DNA from: a candidate division TA06 bacterium B3_TA06
GTDB taxonomy: Bacteria; Hydrothermota; Tepidihabitantia; B3-TA06
Assembly (NCBI GenBank): GCA_005223075.1
Contig: NJBO01000011.1
Span: 1-64,000, forward strand
Length of the DNA stretch: 64,000 bases
Reading direction: 5' to 3'
In this document: in pieces, positions 36,019 to 57,341 of the stretch
Position numbering within the stretch: position 1 is the stretch's first letter
How the letters are laid out: the number at the start of each line of letters is the position of its first letter
Notes under the pieces: model-generated
Databases searched by the model: none
Seen by the model: the letters and a program-made list of their open reading frames with translations, nothing else
What the model was told of the DNA's origin: nothing
Program-made: the position numbers and the translations under genes

Positions 36019-37410
36019 ATGTCCTTGAAATTGACCTTCTTCGGTGCGGTGAGGACGGTTACAGGCTCCAAGTTCGTCCTGCGCACGCGCAAAGCTTCAG
36101 TCCTTACCGAGTTCGGAATGTTCCAGGGCCATCGCAAAAAGGCATTTGAGATCAACAGCCGGGTGCCGCAGGCGGCCCTTAATGCAGACGCTATGGTTTT
36201 TTCACACACCCATATCGATCATTCAGGCAACATCCCCAGGCTGGTGGCAGATGGATACAAGGGTCTAATATATGCTACACCTGCCACGATTGATCTTGCA
36301 AAGATAATGCTTCTTGACTCGGCTGAGATCCAGGAGCGTGACGTCGAGTACGTGAACAAGAAACACGCCAGACGGGGAGAGCCTCTGGTAGAGCCGCTCT
36401 ACACTGTCGAAGAGGCCGAGGCAGCTACCCAGAACTTCCGTCACCTGCACTATCATGAACCCCGGGAGCTTGCCCGGGGGGTGGGCGTTACCCTGTATGA
36501 CGCAGGGCACATACTTGGGTCGTCCCAGGTTCTCTATGAGATCGGCGGGAGACGCATCCTGTTCACCGGTGATTTGGGCCAGCCTGATCTGCCTGTGGTG
36601 CGCGATCCGGAGTGCGTCCCTGATCCTGACGTCATCATCTCGGAATCAACCTACGGGGGCAGGGTACATCCTCCGGTTGAAGAAGCAAAAGAATGTTTGC
36701 AGAAGATCCTTCAAGATGCCTATGACCGTAAGGCCAAGATGGTCGTTCCGGCCTTCTCGGTCGGCCGGACCCAGTCGCTTGTGTTCGTCATGCATCAGCT
36801 TATGGATGAGGGGAGGCTGCCCCAGATGCCGATATGGGTCGATTCGCCCCTCTCGCTTGAGGCTACCCAGGTCTTCCGAAAGCATCCTGAGTGCTTTGAC
36901 GCCGAGACACGTGAGTATCTCGAGCAGGATAAAGACCCCTTCGGTTTCTTCCGTTTGCGTTACGTGAAGACGGTCGAGGAGTCTAAAGCGCTTAACGACA
37001 TCAAGGGTCCGTGCATGATTATTGCGGCCTCAGGGATGTGCGAGGGCGGTCGGGTCGTCCACCATCTAAAGAACATCGTCCCTGATGAGAAGAACCTGGT
37101 CCTCATCACCGGTTTTCAGGCTCCAGGCACCCTGGGTCGGCGTATCGTGGAGGGGGCAGAGGTGGTTCGTCTCTATGGAGAGGAGTATCCCTTGAACTGT
37201 CAGGTGGAGGTTCTCAACGAGTACTCGGCTCATGCGGATCAAAACGATCTTCTGGAGTTCTTCCGTGCTTATAACCCTAAGAAGGTAAAGCAGGTATTCC
37301 TTGTGCATGGAGATGAGGACCAATCTAAAGCACTTGCCGAGGCTGTCTCAGAGTTGGGCTATGCGAACATCCAGATTCCGGAGGTAGAACAAACCTTTGA
37401 TATACGCTGA
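36019..37410 (+). CDS. Metallo-beta-lactamase/beta-CASP ribonuclease
   Basis: 463 residues. The MBL core carries HTHIDH at 63-68 (metal ligands), GHILGSSQVLYEIGG, and FTGDLGQPDLPVV. The beta-CASP insert follows: ESTYGGRVHPPVEEAKE, PAFSVGRTQSLVFVMHQLM, and IAASGMCEGGRVVHHLK. The C-terminal RNA-specificity region has GFQAPGTLGRRI and NEYSAHADQNDLLEFF (H) with VFLVHGDEDQ. This is the CPSF73/YSH1-like single-subunit type common in bacteria and archaea; it acts on RNA, probably in processing or decay. No KH domains are present. It overlaps the recombinase gene by 14 bases. Confidence 0.85.
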   Translation: MSLKLTFFGAVRTVTGSKFVLRTRKASVLTEFGMFQGHRKKAFEINSRVPQAALNADAMVFSHTHIDHSGNIPRLVADGYKGLIYATPATIDLAKIMLLDSAEIQERDVEYVNKKHARRGEPLVEPLYTVEEAEAATQNFRHLHYHEPRELARGVGVTLYDAGHILGSSQVLYEIGGRRILFTGDLGQPDLPVVRDPECVPDPDVIISESTYGGRVHPPVEEAKECLQKILQDAYDRKAKMVVPAFSVGRTQSLVFVMHQLMDEGRLPQMPIWVDSPLSLEATQVFRKHPECFDAETREYLEQDKDPFGFFRLRYVKTVEESKALNDIKGPCMIIAASGMCEGGRVVHHLKNIVPDEKNLVLITGFQAPGTLGRRIVEGAEVVRLYGEEYPLNCQVEVLNEYSAHADQNDLLEFFRAYNPKKVKQVFLVHGDEDQSKALAEAVSELGYANIQIPEVEQTFDIR

Positions 37411-38718: not shown

Positions 38719-38746
38719 TTGACTTCCTGATTCCTGGACATACAAT
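38719..38746 (+). promoter_or_regulatory. Leaderless promoter of DNA methyltransferase
   Basis: TTGACT (38719-38724), 16-bp spacer, TACAAT (38741-38746), 7 bases to ATG 38754. The earlier ATG at 38745 overlaps the -10 box. Confidence 0.75.
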
Positions 38747-38753
38747 GCATAAA

Positions 38754-41186
38754 ATGGTGAAACATATTGACCACCCTCTTGTAGCGCGAACACATCCCCC
38801 GATGTATCGGATTCATAAATATTGGGCGCGCAAGCCGCACAACGTGGTTGCGGAGTATATTAGACGCTACTCGAAGAAAGGGGACATAGTCTTAGACCCA
38901 TTTGTGGGGAGTGGAGTTACCGCAGTCGAGGCACTCAAACTTAAAAGAAAAGTTATTGCAGTAGACCTTGACCCTTTTGCTCTCTTCCTGGCAAGGATGA
39001 CAGCCATTCCTGTGGACCTGAAGCAACTTGACGCCCAATTCAAAAAAATAGAAAATTCCTGCAAGGTTACAATCAACAAGTTATATGAGACGAATTGCCC
39101 AAAGTGTGGTTCGAAAGGACTTATTAGGCAAGTCAATTGGATAGTGACTAGCAGAAAGCCATATAAAGAAAAACCCACAGACCTATGGTATTCTTGCGAG
39201 AAGTGTAAAAGTAACTCTCTTTGGAACAAGAAAATCGACAAAAAGGATTTACCGAGGATCCGGTCTATAGATAAGAGACCAGTCCCTTATTGGGTTCCTG
39301 AGGAAAAGTTTATTTGGAATCCTAGATTGAATGTAGACAAGGGAACTAAAATCACAGATCTCTTTACACACCGTAATCTCATAGCTCTCTCAATACTTCT
39401 TCATCACATTGAAGAAGTCGAAGACGAAACTGTACGCAATCTCCTTAAGCTAGCTTTCACATCTATGCTTGCCCAAGCAAGTAGAATGATCATTCAGGCG
39501 CCAAAGGGTGGAACGAGTAGTGCAAGTTGGAAGGTTAGAGGTTACTGGATCCCCGACAAACATCGAGAACTTAATGTTTGGCATTATTTTGAAAATAGAT
39601 ATCAATTATTGTATACTGGAAAAGAAGAAAGCAATAAGCTGATCCCTGATTACCAAGAGGCTGAAACCTTCGGTGATCTTAAGGGAGAAAATAACATTCT
39701 GTTTTTGAATATATCGGCTTTAAAACTCAAGGGTATTTCCTCTAATTCAGTAGACTACGTTTTTACTGACCCCCCTTATGGTGACAGTGTTCCTTATCTT
39801 GAGGCAGACTACATGTGGGCTACCTGGTTAAGGATGAAACCCAATTTTGAGGATGAGATCATCATTAGTGATAGTCCTGCAAGGCAAAAAAACTTCGAGA
39901 TGTACGAAAAGATGCTGAACGCGGCCTTCAGAGAAGTCCAACGTGTGCTAAAGCCCGGTCGCTGGATGACTGTCACTTTTCACAACACAAACATCAAAAT
40001 TTGGAATGCCATTATACACGCGGCAGTTATGGCCGACTTCAATCTAGAGAAAATTGTGTACCAGCCACCTGCCAAGCGTTCATCCAAGGCGTCGCTTCAC
40101 CCTTATTATAGCGCAGTAGGAGATTACTACATTAGATTCCGAAAACCTAAATACGAGAAAACCATTATTTCATCTTCTGAAATCGATGAACGTCATTATG
40201 AAAGAGTCGTGGTAGAAGCCACGAAAGAACTAATAGCCAAAAGAGGTGAACCTACGGCCTACCAATACATTCTGAACGGCATAATCCCAATCCTCGATAA
40301 AAATGGAGTATTGCTTAAAGGGACCAAAGATATACGAGATGTTCTCAAAGAGAACCTTGACAAAGAGTTTGTACTGGTCGAAAAGAAATGGTGGCTTAAG
40401 GATGTACGCAAATCCAAGATTGATCTTGTACCTTTAGACGAACGGGTCGAGAAGGCTGTAATCAATGTGCTTAATAGAGAAATCACCGTTCATTTTGATG
40501 ACATCTTGCAGGAGATTTTCATCGCCTTCCCCAATGCACTTACACCAGAAACTCAAAAAATTAAGTCTATTCTCGAAGAGTATGCCACTAAGGCAGAGAA
40601 GGGATTGTGGCGGTTGAAACCAGAGGTAGCGGCAAGAGAAAGACAGCATAGTAAGATGATTTTCTTCCTCGCTAAAATAGGGGAAAAGATGGGCTACAAG
40701 ATTTGGATTGGCTCCAGGGAACAAGGAGATACTTACAAGGGACATAAACTTTCTGAGTACAGCGAAAAGGAACTGGAGCTAGCAGATTCGCTTCCCAAAG
40801 AACAATTAGACAGAATCAAAGAGATCGACGTACTTTGGCTGTCCGAGGGGGTAATCAGGATCGAATTTGAGGTAGAAAACACCACTACTATCACAGAGGC
40901 GATTGTGAGGGGTGCCAACATTCCTTCCGAGTATAAGCCTCATCGGTTTATCGTAATTCCGGAGGAGCGAGAGAATTTGATTTCCCGAAAAATACAAGAA
41001 CCCGGTTTACAAGAGCTAGGTATTAGTGATTGGCACTTCATCTTCTACCGTGATCTTGAGGATTTCTACTTGGAGCATAAGAGGCGGAAGGGTATCACAC
41101 TAGGGGACTTGCTCAACCTATCCAGTAATCCCAAATATAAGTCACCAAAACAGGCATCGCTAGGTTTCTCCGAGGAAGACGGGTAA
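38754..41186 (+). CDS. DNA methyltransferase with probable nuclease-like C-terminal domain
   Basis: 810 residues from ATG 38754. Near the start HPPMYRIHKYWARKPHNVV and VLDPFVGSGVTAVEAL (SAM motif I) then AVDLDPFALFLAR; a zinc-ribbon pair (CPKCGSKG, CEKCKS) at about 115-155; then TDPPYGDSVPYLEADY, the catalytic DPPY motif of amino-methyltransferases (N6-adenine or N4-cytosine), and LKPGRWMTVTFHN. The last 250 residues are a different unit: GLWRLKPEVAARERQHSKM, Asp692 in EIDVLWL, and FEVENTT with Glu706/Glu708. This D..ExE arrangement recalls restriction-endonuclease-like folds in which 'FEVE.TTSI..GLLR' follows an acidic strand, but the usual Lys is not visible. The gene is much more AT-rich than its neighbours and stands alone, so recent transfer is likely. 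It could be a one-protein restriction-modification enzyme or an orphan methylase. Confidence 0.75.
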   Translation: MVKHIDHPLVARTHPPMYRIHKYWARKPHNVVAEYIRRYSKKGDIVLDPFVGSGVTAVEALKLKRKVIAVDLDPFALFLARMTAIPVDLKQLDAQFKKIENSCKVTINKLYETNCPKCGSKGLIRQVNWIVTSRKPYKEKPTDLWYSCEKCKSNSLWNKKIDKKDLPRIRSIDKRPVPYWVPEEKFIWNPRLNVDKGTKITDLFTHRNLIALSILLHHIEEVEDETVRNLLKLAFTSMLAQASRMIIQAPKGGTSSASWKVRGYWIPDKHRELNVWHYFENRYQLLYTGKEESNKLIPDYQEAETFGDLKGENNILFLNISALKLKGISSNSVDYVFTDPPYGDSVPYLEADYMWATWLRMKPNFEDEIIISDSPARQKNFEMYEKMLNAAFREVQRVLKPGRWMTVTFHNTNIKIWNAIIHAAVMADFNLEKIVYQPPAKRSSKASLHPYYSAVGDYYIRFRKPKYEKTIISSSEIDERHYERVVVEATKELIAKRGEPTAYQYILNGIIPILDKNGVLLKGTKDIRDVLKENLDKEFVLVEKKWWLKDVRKSKIDLVPLDERVEKAVINVLNREITVHFDDILQEIFIAFPNALTPETQKIKSILEEYATKAEKGLWRLKPEVAARERQHSKMIFFLAKIGEKMGYKIWIGSREQGDTYKGHKLSEYSEKELELADSLPKEQLDRIKEIDVLWLSEGVIRIEFEVENTTTITEAIVRGANIPSEYKPHRFIVIPEERENLISRKIQEPGLQELGISDWHFIFYRDLEDFYLEHKRRKGITLGDLLNLSSNPKYKSPKQASLGFSEEDG

Positions 41187-41206: not shown

Positions 41207-41236
41207 GGCCAACCCTAAACGGTTGGCCCTTTATTC
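41207..41236 (+). terminator. Rho-independent terminator
   Basis: GGCCAACC, loop CTAAAC, GGTTGGCC, then TTTATTCTT. Ends the methyltransferase transcript just before the convergent tRNA-Leu. Confidence 0.8.
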
Positions 41237-41239
41237 TTA

Positions 41240-41321
41240 TGCCGGGGGCGGGACTTGAACCCGCACGGAGTTACCCATACGCCCCTCAAACGTACGTGTC
41301 TGCCAATTCCACCACCCCGGC
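41240..41321 (-). tRNA. tRNA-Leu (anticodon GAG)
   Basis: 82 bases on the minus strand with a long variable arm, as expected for Leu. Acceptor GCCGGGG/CCCCGGC with discriminator A, anticodon stem TACGT/GCGTA (one T.G pair) around loop TTGAGGG (anticodon GAG), variable region ATGGGTAACTCCGT, T arm GCGGG TTCAAGT CCCGC. CCA is not encoded. Confidence 0.93.
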
Positions 41322-41331
41322 GCGGATCATA

Positions 41332-41359
41332 AATATAACTGATTAAAGCAGGAAGTCAA
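41332..41359 (-). promoter_or_regulatory. Promoter of tRNA-Leu
   Basis: Minus strand TTGACT (41359-41354), 16-bp spacer, TATATT (41337-41332). The divergent promoter for the gene at 41439 begins 12 bases away. Confidence 0.75.
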
Positions 41360-52526: not shown

Positions 52527-52555
52527 TTGACAATGGTTATCGATAGGGATACAAT
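52527..52555 (+). promoter_or_regulatory. Leaderless promoter of GT at 52563
   Basis: TTGACA (52527-52532), 17-bp spacer, TACAAT (52550-52555), 7 bases to ATG 52563. An apparent TTG/ATG start inside this region is the -35 box. Confidence 0.8.
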
Positions 52556-52562
52556 TCTTGCC

Positions 52563-53837
52563 ATGTCCGAGTACGCTCTCTCTGCTTCGAAAGGAACACC
52601 ATTCTCTCGAATCCCCAAAGATTTGGTTGGCGAAGACAAGGGTAAGCCTCACATCCTCATCCTGGTAGAGCAGAAACATTTCCCCCCCAGCCACAAGGCA
52701 GCATCCTCACGCATTCACTCTCTGGCGAGATATTGGAGCAACCTCGCTTATGTGACAGTAGTTACAGATAAGTCTGGGAACTCCGACGAGGGTTACTCTC
52801 GAATAGCATTTCCTCTTACTGGACCACGCATGGATTTTCTGAAGCTTCCCTCTAGATTCCCGAAGTTGCTGCACCTCGTGCGAGGCTTGAAGGTGGACGT
52901 TATTTTTGCAAGTTTTCCACCAACATGGCAGATACTGGAAGGCTATCTCTTATCCCGTCGTCTGGGATGCCCGCTGGTTGTTGATATACGGGACTTACCT
53001 GCTGCGATGTTCCCGCTCAAAGAAGGCTCTTTTGTGCGTCGCATCTTTAACCTTTCTATGCGATTCGTTTCTTACCATCTTTTCTGCAAAGCGTCACGAA
53101 TTGCAACAGTGACCGATTGGTTACGGAAGGAGTTGATAAAAACCCTCAGCTATCGGCGAAAGCCAATCTTTTTGATCCCTAACGGAAGCGATGTGAGGCT
53201 TTTCGAAAAGGCGCTTCGGGTGAAGAAGGAGTTTGACCTTGTTTACTCAGGAACATTAATACCCGTAAGAAATCCAGTCTTAATGCTTAAGTTTTTACAC
53301 TGCCTCAGGGATATTTATCCCAGACTGAAAGTACTCTTTCTTTCGGATATTCTTGAGACGGCGTTAGGAAGTCAGTTTATTCTTGGTCTAAGACAGTTTG
53401 ATTTAAGTAAGAACGTAGAATTTGAAAGGATGACTTCTTTACGGCAGATTCCGGACTATCTTGGAAAAGCGAGATTAGGAATTGATTCCCTATTTCCTGA
53501 AGTATATAACCATAAAGGAGTGGCTAGCGCGAAAGACTACGAATATCTTGCAGCGGGTTTACCGGTCGTTGGTTTGCTTGATCCTGGTTTTTACGTTGAA
53601 ACCAAACGTTTGATACTTGATAATGGTGCAGGCATCCTAGATCCTGATCCTGAAAGTCTCGCTCGCAAGACTGTGGACCTATTAAAAGACCCTGCCCGGC
53701 TCCGCAAGATGTCCAAACGCGCCCGCGAAGTGGGTATGCGTTTCGACCGCAAGAAGCTTGCCGAGGAGTACTACTACAAAGTCATCCTACCTTGTTGGAA
53801 GGAATTCAACGAAAGACAATCTATCTCTGATTTTTAG
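52563..53837 (+). CDS. GT4-family glycosyltransferase
   Basis: 424 residues from ATG 52563, the first start after the promoter. The N-domain starts about residue 20 (HILILVEQKHFPPSHKAASS, RIHSLARYWSNLAYVTVVTD); the middle has CPLVVDIRDLPAAMFPLKEG and a TVTDWLRKELIKTL helix; the second domain has IFLIPNGSDVRLFEKAL, FDLVYSGTLIPVRNPVLMLK, and DYEYLAAGLPVVGLLDPG, which serves as the donor-binding loop. A truncated near-copy of its last 90 residues lies at 55345-55672. Probably part of the same glycan pathway as its upstream neighbours, though with its own promoter. Confidence 0.8.
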   Translation: MSEYALSASKGTPFSRIPKDLVGEDKGKPHILILVEQKHFPPSHKAASSRIHSLARYWSNLAYVTVVTDKSGNSDEGYSRIAFPLTGPRMDFLKLPSRFPKLLHLVRGLKVDVIFASFPPTWQILEGYLLSRRLGCPLVVDIRDLPAAMFPLKEGSFVRRIFNLSMRFVSYHLFCKASRIATVTDWLRKELIKTLSYRRKPIFLIPNGSDVRLFEKALRVKKEFDLVYSGTLIPVRNPVLMLKFLHCLRDIYPRLKVLFLSDILETALGSQFILGLRQFDLSKNVEFERMTSLRQIPDYLGKARLGIDSLFPEVYNHKGVASAKDYEYLAAGLPVVGLLDPGFYVETKRLILDNGAGILDPDPESLARKTVDLLKDPARLRKMSKRAREVGMRFDRKKLAEEYYYKVILPCWKEFNERQSISDF

Positions 53838-53997
53838 CTGAGTAGCCAATCACAGGCCTTATAAAGCAAACGCCGTCGGGCGACTGGATATATCAGGATT
53901 CAGGTTCTCTCTGCAGGTCAGCGCTTCTCCCACTTCCTAAAACCCACTAAGCATGGTGACATTTTTGCCGGTTAAAGCCACATACTCGTGCTGCATC

Positions 53998-55233
53998 TTA
54001 GTCTAAAGCAGCGTCCCCGTTGGCTTCAACCCGAGTATAGAGCTCCGGGAAATATCTCTTTACCAGTTTTCTGATTATATCTGTCTGATGTTCAAAGGTT
54101 AATTTTTTTACAGTCCGAGAACCACCCTCCGCAAGTCGATGTCGTAAATCAGAATCGACAATCAACTTGCGGATTGCATCGGTTAATTCCTTGAGATTCC
54201 CTGGCGTTACGAGTAAACCGTTGACGCCATCTTTAACCCGATAAGGTATCCCGGCTAGACGAGTTGCAATGAGAGGTAACCCGGCTGACCAAAGCTCTAA
54301 AATTACCCTTGGGAATCCTTCAGGATAACTATCAGATGGTAGTACAGCGATATCGGTTTTTTTGTAAAGCTCTTGTAGCGGCCCGCTCGCGGAGACGAAC
54401 CCCAGGATTTTCACGTGCTTATTCAACCCTTGCGTCGCTACTCGTTGACGCATCTCCTCCAATAAAATACCATCCCCTGCCATCGTAAGACGTATTTCAG
54501 GAAACTCAGATTTTAGATTTCCAACTGCATCTATTAAAATATCTATCCCTTTACCGTAAGCAAACCTTCCCACAAATAGTATTTCCTTCGCTTGTCCGCT
54601 CTTTTTCTTTACAGATTGTAGATCCTTCTCCTTGATAAGAATGTCGTCTATTGAAAATGCGGGATGTAACGGATTCGAGTAAAGTCTCTTCAATTCTTCC
54701 CCGGCTGTTAATACAAGGCCATAACGAGTCATTATTTTAACAGCTAGATGATAAATTAAAAAAAACAAATGAGCTAAAACTTTTACTATCCCTTTATATT
54801 TAGATCGTTTCGACGCTAGAAGGAGGTTGCTGACCACATGAAGAATTAGTGGTTTTCGTTTTTTTCTCGCAACCCACCAAAAGAACAGACCAATCATCGA
54901 GGGAATTCTTAACCAAATTACGTCACAGTTCTCTACGAATAAACAAGCTTTAGCAAAATGAGATCTGAAGTCACAAAACAAAGACAGAACGTTTTCGGCA
55001 GCGTTTCTCCAACTTGGTAAAGGGATCACAGTTACGCCTCTTTGCTCGAGGACTATATTGTACTTTTCCGGATCTAATTTTTCAACAGGAATTATCGAAA
55101 CTGCCTGTGTAATAGATTCAGCTAGGTTCAAACCTTCTATGAACTTTAAAGCTTCATCTTGCGTTACGGTAAAGCGCCCGTCACTTAGATGGCTGTGATC
55201 AAGGAAAACGCCTAGTCTTAAAGGTTTAACCAC
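53998..55233 (-). CDS. GT4-family glycosyltransferase, AT-rich
   Basis: 411 residues from GTG 55233, five bases after a -10 box. KPLRLGVFLDHSHLSDGRFT, an N-domain, then KEILFVGRFAYGKGIDILID, RLTMAGDGILLEEMRQRVAT, VKILGFVSASGPLQELYKKT, IAVLPSDSYPEGFPRVILEL (the usual E..G donor loop) and AGLPLIATRLAGIPYRVKDG. Complete for its family. Clearly richer in A and T than the surrounding genes and lying between the two copies of a GT C-terminus, it looks inserted. The gap 53838-53997 shows nothing I can support. Confidence 0.8.
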   Translation of the reverse strand: MVKPLRLGVFLDHSHLSDGRFTVTQDEALKFIEGLNLAESITQAVSIIPVEKLDPEKYNIVLEQRGVTVIPLPSWRNAAENVLSLFCDFRSHFAKACLFVENCDVIWLRIPSMIGLFFWWVARKKRKPLILHVVSNLLLASKRSKYKGIVKVLAHLFFLIYHLAVKIMTRYGLVLTAGEELKRLYSNPLHPAFSIDDILIKEKDLQSVKKKSGQAKEILFVGRFAYGKGIDILIDAVGNLKSEFPEIRLTMAGDGILLEEMRQRVATQGLNKHVKILGFVSASGPLQELYKKTDIAVLPSDSYPEGFPRVILELWSAGLPLIATRLAGIPYRVKDGVNGLLVTPGNLKELTDAIRKLIVDSDLRHRLAEGGSRTVKKLTFEHQTDIIRKLVKRYFPELYTRVEANGDAALD

Positions 55234-55238
55234 AAAGT

Positions 55239-55266
55239 ATTATACTGAACGGTAGGTGTAAGTCAA
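55239..55266 (-). promoter_or_regulatory. Leaderless promoter of GT at 55233
   Basis: Minus strand TTGACT (55266-55261), 16-bp spacer, TATAAT (55244-55239), 5 bases to GTG 55233. Confidence 0.8.
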
Positions 55267-55344
55267 CTAAAGGCTTATGCAACGCTGTTTTGTCTAACAG
55301 TTTCATAACAAACTTGTTTTCGGGTTGTGTTTCAACTCTCTCAT

Positions 55345-55672
55345 TCAGCGGTGTACAACTTGCATAGGAGCGGTTGGAGCAAAAGAGCATGAATACTTAG
55401 CTGCTGGACTTCCAGTAATTGGATTGATGTATCCTGAGTTTTATATAGAAAGAGGTAAATTGATTGTAGGCAATGGTGCTGGAATAATGGATCAAGACCC
55501 TAAACGACTAGCCGAAGAGACTGCAGCTCTATTAAGAAATCCGGCTCGATTACGTGCGATGTCAAAGCAGGCAAGAAAAGTGGGTGAGCGTTTCGATCGT
55601 AAACGCCTGGCCGAGGACTATTACTACAAAGTCATCCTTCCGGCGTGGCAGGAGTTCAACGCAAAAGGATAA
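55345..55672 (+). pseudogene. C-terminal remnant of a GT4 glycosyltransferase
   Basis: From HEYLAAGLPVIGLMYP to YYYKVILPAWQEFN about two thirds of residues equal the last 90 of the gene at 52563 (EYLAAGLPVVGLLDP ... YYYKVILPCWKEFN). Upstream, homology continues only after a frame change near 55375 (VYNLHRSG against VYNHKGVAS), so the copy is both truncated and shifted. No start or promoter fits. Its last bases overlap the convergent gene end at 55656. Confidence 0.75.
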
Positions 55673-57341
55673 ACCGCTCGCAGGTAGTTCTTTCACCAAT
55701 CTTGAGATGTAGGAAGTAGACGCCTGGCGATACATCCGAGAGATCCCACATGAGTTGTCCTTCAGGATCTTTCAGGTGCTCTTGCTTTATGCGGCTACCT
55801 AGGACGTCGTATAGCACAAGCTTTCCTTTGCTTCCGTATGGAAAGGCGTAACTGATGCGGCATGAAGAATTCGTCAAGCTTTTAACCTCCAAACGTAGGG
55901 GGAGAGAAGCGATTTGCTTTTCCAGCACACCTGCCGCTTTGTTCAGCCGCACGATCAATGTGTCGTTAGCGTGATCTTCGTCCTGGGGATGAGATAGGGC
56001 CAGGGTGAGCACGGCCGAATCGGGTACTGACCAGTCTGTAACCAGGGTTATCGTGTCCATACCCAGGAAATCTAGGTCGGATGTAGCCGAACCCCAGGCG
56101 TCTCCTGAAAGCGTTACCTTTACGTTGCTGAGGAGGGCTCGGCCGTAGTTGGAAACCACAGCAACCAGATCCATTCTCGTACCCGGCTCTATCTGATCTC
56201 CATCACAGATCCCTACAAGTTCCAGCGCGCCTGCATCATAGTCATAAACCTCACCAATCAACCGATCCAGCCCCATCATGCAGAGATAGGCCGAGACCCA
56301 GCTCATGTCGGTGGTGTCCGCGTCCTGGGTGGTGGCCATGATACCGCCGTCATTGTCGGTGTCATAGGATAGGAGCTTGTGGGTGAGCCAGCGGTGGTGG
56401 CGGTCATAGGTCTCGTCGTGCGATATATCGTACATCGCTCCGTGCCCGTTTGCGTAGGCAACGTTCCAGGCGTTATCCCACGAGAAGTAGTCAACCTTCT
56501 TCCATTCCTGGAAGGTGTCAAGGTAGGGGCCGTTTACCTCGATCCATTCCTTACCTCTGAGGGTGTCGCGCAGAAAGGCGGAGTTACAGATGCCCCACAC
56601 CATGGTTCCTGCGGACATCGCCCATCTTTCGTCCCCGAGCCTTGCCTCGATCTGGGGTTCGATGAAGCTGAGCAGGCTGTCGGCGAACGAGCACGCACTG
56701 TCCCGGGCCTCGCCGTCTTCTCGCTCCACCCCGTAGGAATAGAGCCAGCCCGCACACCAGCCTTTGACGAAGCGGTCTATATCCCAGTACATCCCCAATG
56801 GGTGTGTCTTTATGAACTCAGCGCATGAATCACGATACCATGCCCAGCTTTCGTCTTCGTAGACCGCTCTGTAACGTTGCTCAGCGGCAATCCCCCAGGC
56901 GCAGTTATGGGCGCGGTAATAGTCTTTGCTTCCTCCTTCTTCCTTCCATGCCGGGAAGTTGGAGCAGTAAAACCAGGCTTTATCGATATTCTCCTTAAAT
57001 CTTGCGGTATCCCCGGTCAGCTCCCCGTATCTCGCCCACACCCAGATTGCCTCCTGGGTGTTGTCGGTCTCTATAGTGTTCTCCAGCTCGCCTGACTCGG
57101 CCTCTATCATCCCGCCGTGATCTGCCGAATCCGGATCGTTAAGCTGCCATTGGGCGCAGAACCCGGCTATCTGGGCGAACTCGTACAGGTAGTTGAAGCG
57201 AAGCTTTAAGGGATCTATGGTGTCCTGTGCCAGCGGCGAAACTCTAGGGGTACGGGGATAACTGCCTGGCCTCATCGGAGCGGTTGCCCACAGTGAGCCG
57301 CATAAAATCAGCCCTCCCATAATCAACACCACTTTTTTCAT
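55656..57341 (-). CDS. Secreted alpha-barrel-like protein with sorting tail
   Basis: 561 residues; ATG 57341 behind AAAGGAGGCGACTG. Signal peptide MKKVVLIMGGLILCGSLWATA. Residues about 50-370 are helical with Trp/Tyr-rich repeats (EAIWVWARYGELTGDTARFK, RAHNCAWGIAAEQRYRAVYE, NAWNVAYANGHGAMYDISHD), which resembles the (alpha/alpha)6 toroids of polysaccharide lyases and glycosidases, but no catalytic pattern is certain. A CARDB-like beta domain (about 385-470) and a Por tail (PYGSKGKLVLYDVLGSRIKQ, VSPGVYFLHLKIGE, FILLR) end the protein. Export by the same route as the other tailed proteins is expected. Confidence 0.65.
   Translation of the reverse strand: MKKVVLIMGGLILCGSLWATAPMRPGSYPRTPRVSPLAQDTIDPLKLRFNYLYEFAQIAGFCAQWQLNDPDSADHGGMIEAESGELENTIETDNTQEAIWVWARYGELTGDTARFKENIDKAWFYCSNFPAWKEEGGSKDYYRAHNCAWGIAAEQRYRAVYEDESWAWYRDSCAEFIKTHPLGMYWDIDRFVKGWCAGWLYSYGVEREDGEARDSACSFADSLLSFIEPQIEARLGDERWAMSAGTMVWGICNSAFLRDTLRGKEWIEVNGPYLDTFQEWKKVDYFSWDNAWNVAYANGHGAMYDISHDETYDRHHRWLTHKLLSYDTDNDGGIMATTQDADTTDMSWVSAYLCMMGLDRLIGEVYDYDAGALELVGICDGDQIEPGTRMDLVAVVSNYGRALLSNVKVTLSGDAWGSATSDLDFLGMDTITLVTDWSVPDSAVLTLALSHPQDEDHANDTLIVRLNKAAGVLEKQIASLPLRLEVKSLTNSSCRISYAFPYGSKGKLVLYDVLGSRIKQEHLKDPEGQLMWDLSDVSPGVYFLHLKIGERTTCERFILLR

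Follow-up and report, generated by a model that had tools for sequence, protein, structure and literature searches.

Restriction and modification carried in a single protein chain are already known. In most Type IIC enzymes the nuclease comes first, followed by a gamma-class methylase and then by a specificity part at the C-terminus (PMC4081073). Methylase and nuclease share one chain in MmeI, Eco57I and BpuSI (Type IIC/IIG), and MmeI-like cases need no separate partner. BtgZI joins an N-terminal alpha-class methylase to a C-terminal PD-(D/E)XK variant (PMC4081073), and was the only characterised example of the methylase-first order that our comparison found. BREX-3 PglXI/BrxXI and the DUF1156 methylases of BR systems combine a methylase core with an insert between motifs I and IV and HTH-like C-terminal parts, and a nested TRD has been reported for the methylases of both systems (PMC12839542). 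In the stand-alone REase_II family PDLC03534 the N-terminus is HhH-like helical, EVE or HTH, and the chain lacks a methylase.

Here we describe a gene in a 64,000-nucleotide stretch of DNA from the candidate division TA06 bacterium B3_TA06 (the whole stretch is hereafter called the window), whose product is probably a single-chain restriction-modification enzyme in the Type IIC/IIG style, with the order methylase-wHTH-nuclease, on a BREX-3-type methylase base and with putative cleavage activity. By homology, the protein has the methylase and nuclease in one chain that characterise Type IIC/IIG, as MmeI, Eco57I and BpuSI do, but it departs from the majority of that class in its reversed order, in a putative recognition insert inside the methylase and in having motif I before motif IV. 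It resembles BtgZI in placing the methylase first and a PD-(D/E)XK variant last, a likeness of described domain order only, by which we claim no shared membership, and the nuclease motif of BtgZI has Q for E where the window protein has E706-V-E708. With the BREX-3 and BR methylases it shares the core, the insert and the HTH-like parts, but it has no adjacent BREX genes and no DUF1156 domain that we could find, and a nuclease domain has been added. A role as a BREX or BR component was ruled out by the neighbourhood, since no brxC, pglZ, brxHII or brxA lies beside the gene. The nuclease-like domain, with its invariant D...FExE, is shared with PDLC03534. The combination of a BREX-3-type methylase base with an ExE nuclease is a variant of single-chain restriction-modification, and the original prediction of an enzyme of an unusual kind holds in part, BtgZI being a published precedent.

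Gene, composition and neighbourhood

The open reading frame list contains a forward-strand frame at 38745-41186 whose listed start, ATG 38745, gives 813 residues. Its second Met, ATG 38754, gives 810 residues to 41186 and is preferred as the better fit to the homologues and to a leaderless geometry; residue numbers count from it. The gene had been described as differing from its surroundings in base composition, which held up: its GC is 42.5% and its GC3 45%, against a window GC of 52% and a GC3 of 52-64% in six other window genes, and it is essentially the lowest-GC ORF-sized stretch of the window, tied with one at 53 kb. A second AT-rich stretch (52900-55700) lies within a cluster that, labelled by eye, resembles sugar-nucleotide, flippase and glycosyltransferase genes; there a glycosyltransferase-like gene at 53998-55233 (minus strand) seems to split another at 52527-53837 from a piece at 55325-55672 that resembles the C-terminus of such a gene.

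The coordinates of all features are collected in Table 1. A promoter-like site weakly suggests that transcription would start at about ATG 38754 and yield a leaderless transcript; the placement of the site agrees with the leaderless gene originally predicted, but the scan as a whole was at chance level, with 5 sites found against 4.5 expected. The first part of this site, at 38719-38732 (TTGACTTCCTGATT), resembles an inverted copy of the tRNA-Leu promoter region at 41346-41359 (13 of 14 bases), which is also present in a sibling genome without the insertion, and the likeness is possibly a chance similarity of promoters. The gene's own terminator was recovered as a terminator-like hairpin, and the tRNA-Leu(gag) beyond it is an addition to the earlier description. 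As predicted, no endonuclease, specificity or ATPase gene was found within about 5 kb, where the neighbours are housekeeping or unrelated genes.

Table 1 Features of the methylase-wHTH-nuclease locus (window positions)
Feature	Position	Strand	Basis
Promoter-like site TTGACT-16-TACAAT	38719..38746	+	Promoter scan, chance level overall; weak
Gene of methylase-wHTH-nuclease protein	38754..41186	+	ORF list, sequence, full-length homologues 48-51% identical
HKYWARKP signature of PglXI-like methylases, residues 21-28	38814..38837	+	Invariant in alignment A1
SAM-binding motif I, LDPFVGSG, residues 47-54	38892..38915	+	Pfam match, alignment
Zinc-ribbon-like cysteines C115, C118, C148, C151	39096..39206	+	Invariant in alignment A1
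Catalytic motif IV, DPPY, residues 339-342	39768..39779	+	Sequence; invariant in alignment A1
Winged-helix-like region ending in GLWRLKP, about residues 557-623	40422..40622	+	Pfam Stork_head (weak), Foldseek
Restriction-endonuclease-like domain, PD-(D/E)XK-type core, about residues 623-780	40620..41093	+	tblastn, PADLOC, AlphaFold topology
Candidate catalytic D692 (IDVLW)	40827..40829	+	Kept in 23/23 homologues
Candidate catalytic E706-V-E708 (FEVE; E at usual lysine position)	40869..40877	+	Both kept in 23/23 homologues
Terminator-like hairpin, readable on both strands, between gene and tRNA	41207..41228		Sequence scan
tRNA-Leu(gag)	41240..41321	-	Homology to empty site of sibling G001 resumes at tRNA 3' end

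A BREX-3-type methylase half

The N-terminal half is covered by Pfam N6_N4_Mtase (6e-22), and its best PADLOC profiles are MTase_II PDLC03319 (1.5e-64) and BREX-3 PglXI (2.1e-63; best stretch at residues 157-435 in the 813-aa reading). On these profile matches it is assigned as a DNA amino-methyltransferase of the BREX-3 PglXI type, and the SAM motif I and DPPY that had been noted in this half are both in place. About 285 residues separate the two motifs, with four conserved cysteines among them; this cysteine-bearing insert is a candidate target-recognition region, with zinc binding likewise putative. The methylation product would most likely be adenine N6.

A restriction-endonuclease-like domain at the C-terminus

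The winged-helix-like region proposed to precede the C-terminal domain has weak support, from a Pfam Stork_head match (0.009-0.012) and from Foldseek matches that are mostly winged helices. Beyond it, the two motifs on which the restriction-like domain had been proposed occur at residues 690-695 (EIDVLW) and 705-711 (FEVENTT), with D692, W695, E706 and E708 unchanged across all 23 homologues. Because only five columns are fully invariant among these sequences (L639 is the other) and the four motif residues are among them, the motif conservation is far from chance; H632 is H in 21 of the 23.

A tblastn search with 181 aa of the domain (window 40587-41129) returned 159 plasmid records with E-values down to 3e-12, the matched genes being named, for example, "type II restriction endonuclease" or "hypothetical protein", which are annotations rather than assays. 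The PADLOC profile REase_II PDLC03534, again an annotation, was matched by all ten proteins tested, both C-terminal domains of fusions and stand-alone relatives (window protein 6.4e-6; L004, 1.5e-9; the EVE-like protein L051, 6.9e-18). By sequence homology, then, the C-terminal domain is restriction-endonuclease-like, related to plasmid stand-alone, EVE-nuclease and HTH-nuclease proteins. No Pfam family or solved structure matches it by sequence, and searches of solved structures with the domain and one stand-alone relative gave chance matches only.

The full-length AlphaFold model was too poor for use (pLDDT 53, pTM 0.34); the C-terminal model, from seven window and locus sequences, had an overall pLDDT of 67, with the nuclease-like part mostly at 80-95. 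The predicted order there is helix (149-171, model numbering), strand (175-178), strand (219-223), strand (226-233), helix (239-246) and strand (256-261), where D692 opens the second strand and E706 and E708 lie at the third. The model thus has a PD-(D/E)XK-like core, and a non-nuclease fold, which would have spoken against the original prediction, did not appear. Winged helices, produced by the model's other half, headed the Foldseek matches in the PDB together with FokI (E 0.035, probability 0.69), and EcoT38I was matched at E 0.43; no nuclease match fell below 0.001 and none is significant alone, and the viral Foldseek search gave nothing usable.

Recent insertion at the 3' end of tRNA-Leu

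In G001, the closest sibling genome compared (flanks 93-95% identical), the insertion site is unoccupied: the sequences match as far as 38676, close to the end of a zincin gene, and again from 41240, at the 3' end of tRNA-Leu(gag), and about 140 bp of intergenic sequence takes the place of the gene. Since the gene is missing here from G002, G003 and G005 too, gain is likelier than repeated loss, and the gene was recently inserted, alone, at the tRNA 3' end. The insert brings no integrase (the siblings, too, have the phage-integrase-family gene at 37397), and a search for attachment-site repeats turned up no second copy of the tRNA 3' end. Insertion at tRNA genes as a habit of the family was rejected, because a tRNA lies near the gene in L006 only, at a distance of about 4 kb.

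Relatives of the fusion and spread of the nuclease domain

Full-length proteins with the same domain order occur in Aenigmatarchaeota (L004, 51% identical) and in ANME-1, Methanophagales (L005 and L006, 48-49%), with further relatives in other families of the host's own phylum (L023-L026), in L037 and L075, and as a fragment in L076. Close homologues that are plain orphan methylases would have told against the original prediction; the close homologues all carry the same nuclease-like domain, which rules out a plain orphan methylase. In the methylase-core tree ten fusions cluster together (support 85/95) and two others, L030 and L077, form a pair beside a non-fused row; the fusion label changes a minimum of 2 times against a shuffled mean of 7.0. 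The fusion is, to judge from the tree, stable over the group of ten, which spans bacteria and archaea, and because bacterial and archaeal rows group together there, the tree suggests that the gene passed between the two domains.

In L006 and, within the more distant sister group, in L071 the fusion is followed by an AAA-like gene, and L077 has a similar one; the window, L004, L037/L072 and L070 have none there, so that a constant partner ATPase was rejected. The genes directly after the fusion in L071 (1874-3568, AAA-ATPase-like) and L077 (from 4080) almost overlap it, suggesting that the more distant fusion group (L027/L071, L077) is a two-gene variant system. In Halorarius a methylase-only relative lies beside a BrxA gene.

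The nuclease domain also occurs apart from the fusion. Scanning a viral collection with A3 found three loci, of which L051 and L052 have an EVE-like N-terminus and the nuclease domain and L050 is a contig that begins with the end of a fusion gene; scans of the same collection with A2 and with a stand-alone nuclease found nothing. The stand-alone plasmid proteins are 415-435 aa long and sit alone, some near metal-resistance or transposase genes. Orphan plasmid genes with no adjacent methylase lie at 3314-4561 in L043, 3242-4549 in L044, 3239-4522 in L045 and 3305-4567 in L049; three of the four are named "type II restriction endonuclease", and by eye their N-terminus is helix-hairpin-helix-like.

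Activity of the nuclease-like domain and alternative explanations

Position 708 is E, never K, in all 23 sequences. BamHI has E in place of the motif's lysine, and BglII and NotI have Q (reviewed in PMC4081073); because BamHI is active, ExE does not imply inactivity. In three ANME-1-type orthologues (L005, L006 and L037), the nuclease part had a dN/dS of 0.08-0.15 and the methylase part one of 0.11-0.17; as these values are similar, the nuclease part is under purifying selection about as strict as that on the methylase. The invariant D692, E706 and E708, together with this low dN/dS, argue against a decayed nuclease domain and favour a single-chain restriction-modification enzyme, with putative cleavage, over the methylase with a dead nuclease that had been offered as the other possibility. 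The domain might still be kept without cutting, in a solitary methylase whose PD-(D/E)XK-like part binds DNA or a partner and, for example, steers or gates methylation. This would agree with ExE in place of ExK, with the lack of another restriction gene nearby and with the dead PD-(D/E)XK domains kept for sensing in BREX-3 BrxHII helicases (PMC12839542). The BrxHII motif, however, has degenerated completely, while the three acidic residues of the present domain do not vary across a set that includes stand-alone nucleases, and active BamHI has the same substitution; we consider a non-cutting domain unlikely.

Improbable, in our view, is a modification-dependent (type IV-like) or damage-triggered nuclease in the wHTH-nuclease half, with the methylase marking self or foreign DNA and cutting that needs methylation. 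EVE domains serve restriction enzymes as modified-base sensors (PMC7641849), and L010 carries this nuclease domain fused to EVE domains, as L051 and L052 carry it with EVE-like N-termini, but no EVE or SRA-like sensor is present in the window protein, and a methylation-dependent nuclease fused to a methylase would attack its own host. The protein could also be the modification half of a two-gene system, with the endonuclease elsewhere or lost and the C-terminal domain accessory, which for the window protein we hold to be very improbable. Methylase-only relatives do adjoin AAA/DUF2357 restriction genes (Kurthia and Thiospirochaeta plasmids), and in L066 (L023/L066, genome G131) the fusion has a CfrBI-family endonuclease gene (PF09516, 7e-24) two genes upstream; a tatA-like gene separates the two, however, and no endonuclease is a constant neighbour in the other relatives. 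The L023/L066 lineage itself may use a separate nuclease, for which the CfrBI-family gene is the main fact. For a single-chain restriction-modification enzyme in the window speaks the finding of the same nuclease domain as a separate gene beside a methylase gene: an EVE-nuclease gene adjoins a D12-like methylase gene in L010/L073, and an HTH-nuclease gene adjoins a methylase piece in L074 (both methylase labels by eye). Counting against it are the failure of any Pfam family or solved structure to match the domain by sequence, the weak Foldseek links to nucleases, the E rather than K at the third catalytic position and the CfrBI-type gene in L023/L066.

Proposed mechanism and implications

For the single-chain restriction-modification enzyme we propose that the N-terminal methylase would methylate a single target sequence wherever it occurs in the host's DNA. 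The insert that separates motifs I and IV would read this sequence, with the winged helices as further putative DNA-binding parts. The tethered C-terminal PD-(D/E)XK-type domain would cut DNA at or near unmethylated sites and so may defend the host against phages; as each chain has one active site, two molecules would probably pair for cutting. The gene would spread as single-gene cargo, in this genome to the 3' end of a tRNA. A wider reading, possible but doubtful, is that such proteins form a hitherto unrecognised, self-contained one-gene defence class that moves as one gene between archaea and bacteria. In it, a BREX-3-lineage methylase would have acquired its own nuclease effector, from an ExE family that EVE- and HTH-fused stand-alone proteins share, and would control cutting in cis. 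If so, the methylases of BREX and BR systems would be linked directly to Type II restriction.

If the enzyme cuts, modification, recognition and cleavage would be contained in 810 residues, in a rare methylase-first order and in uncultured archaea and bacteria, and BREX-3-type methylases could work without the BREX machinery. It would also provide the ExE nuclease domain, which many plasmid genes carry under names given by annotation, with a first member open to testing.
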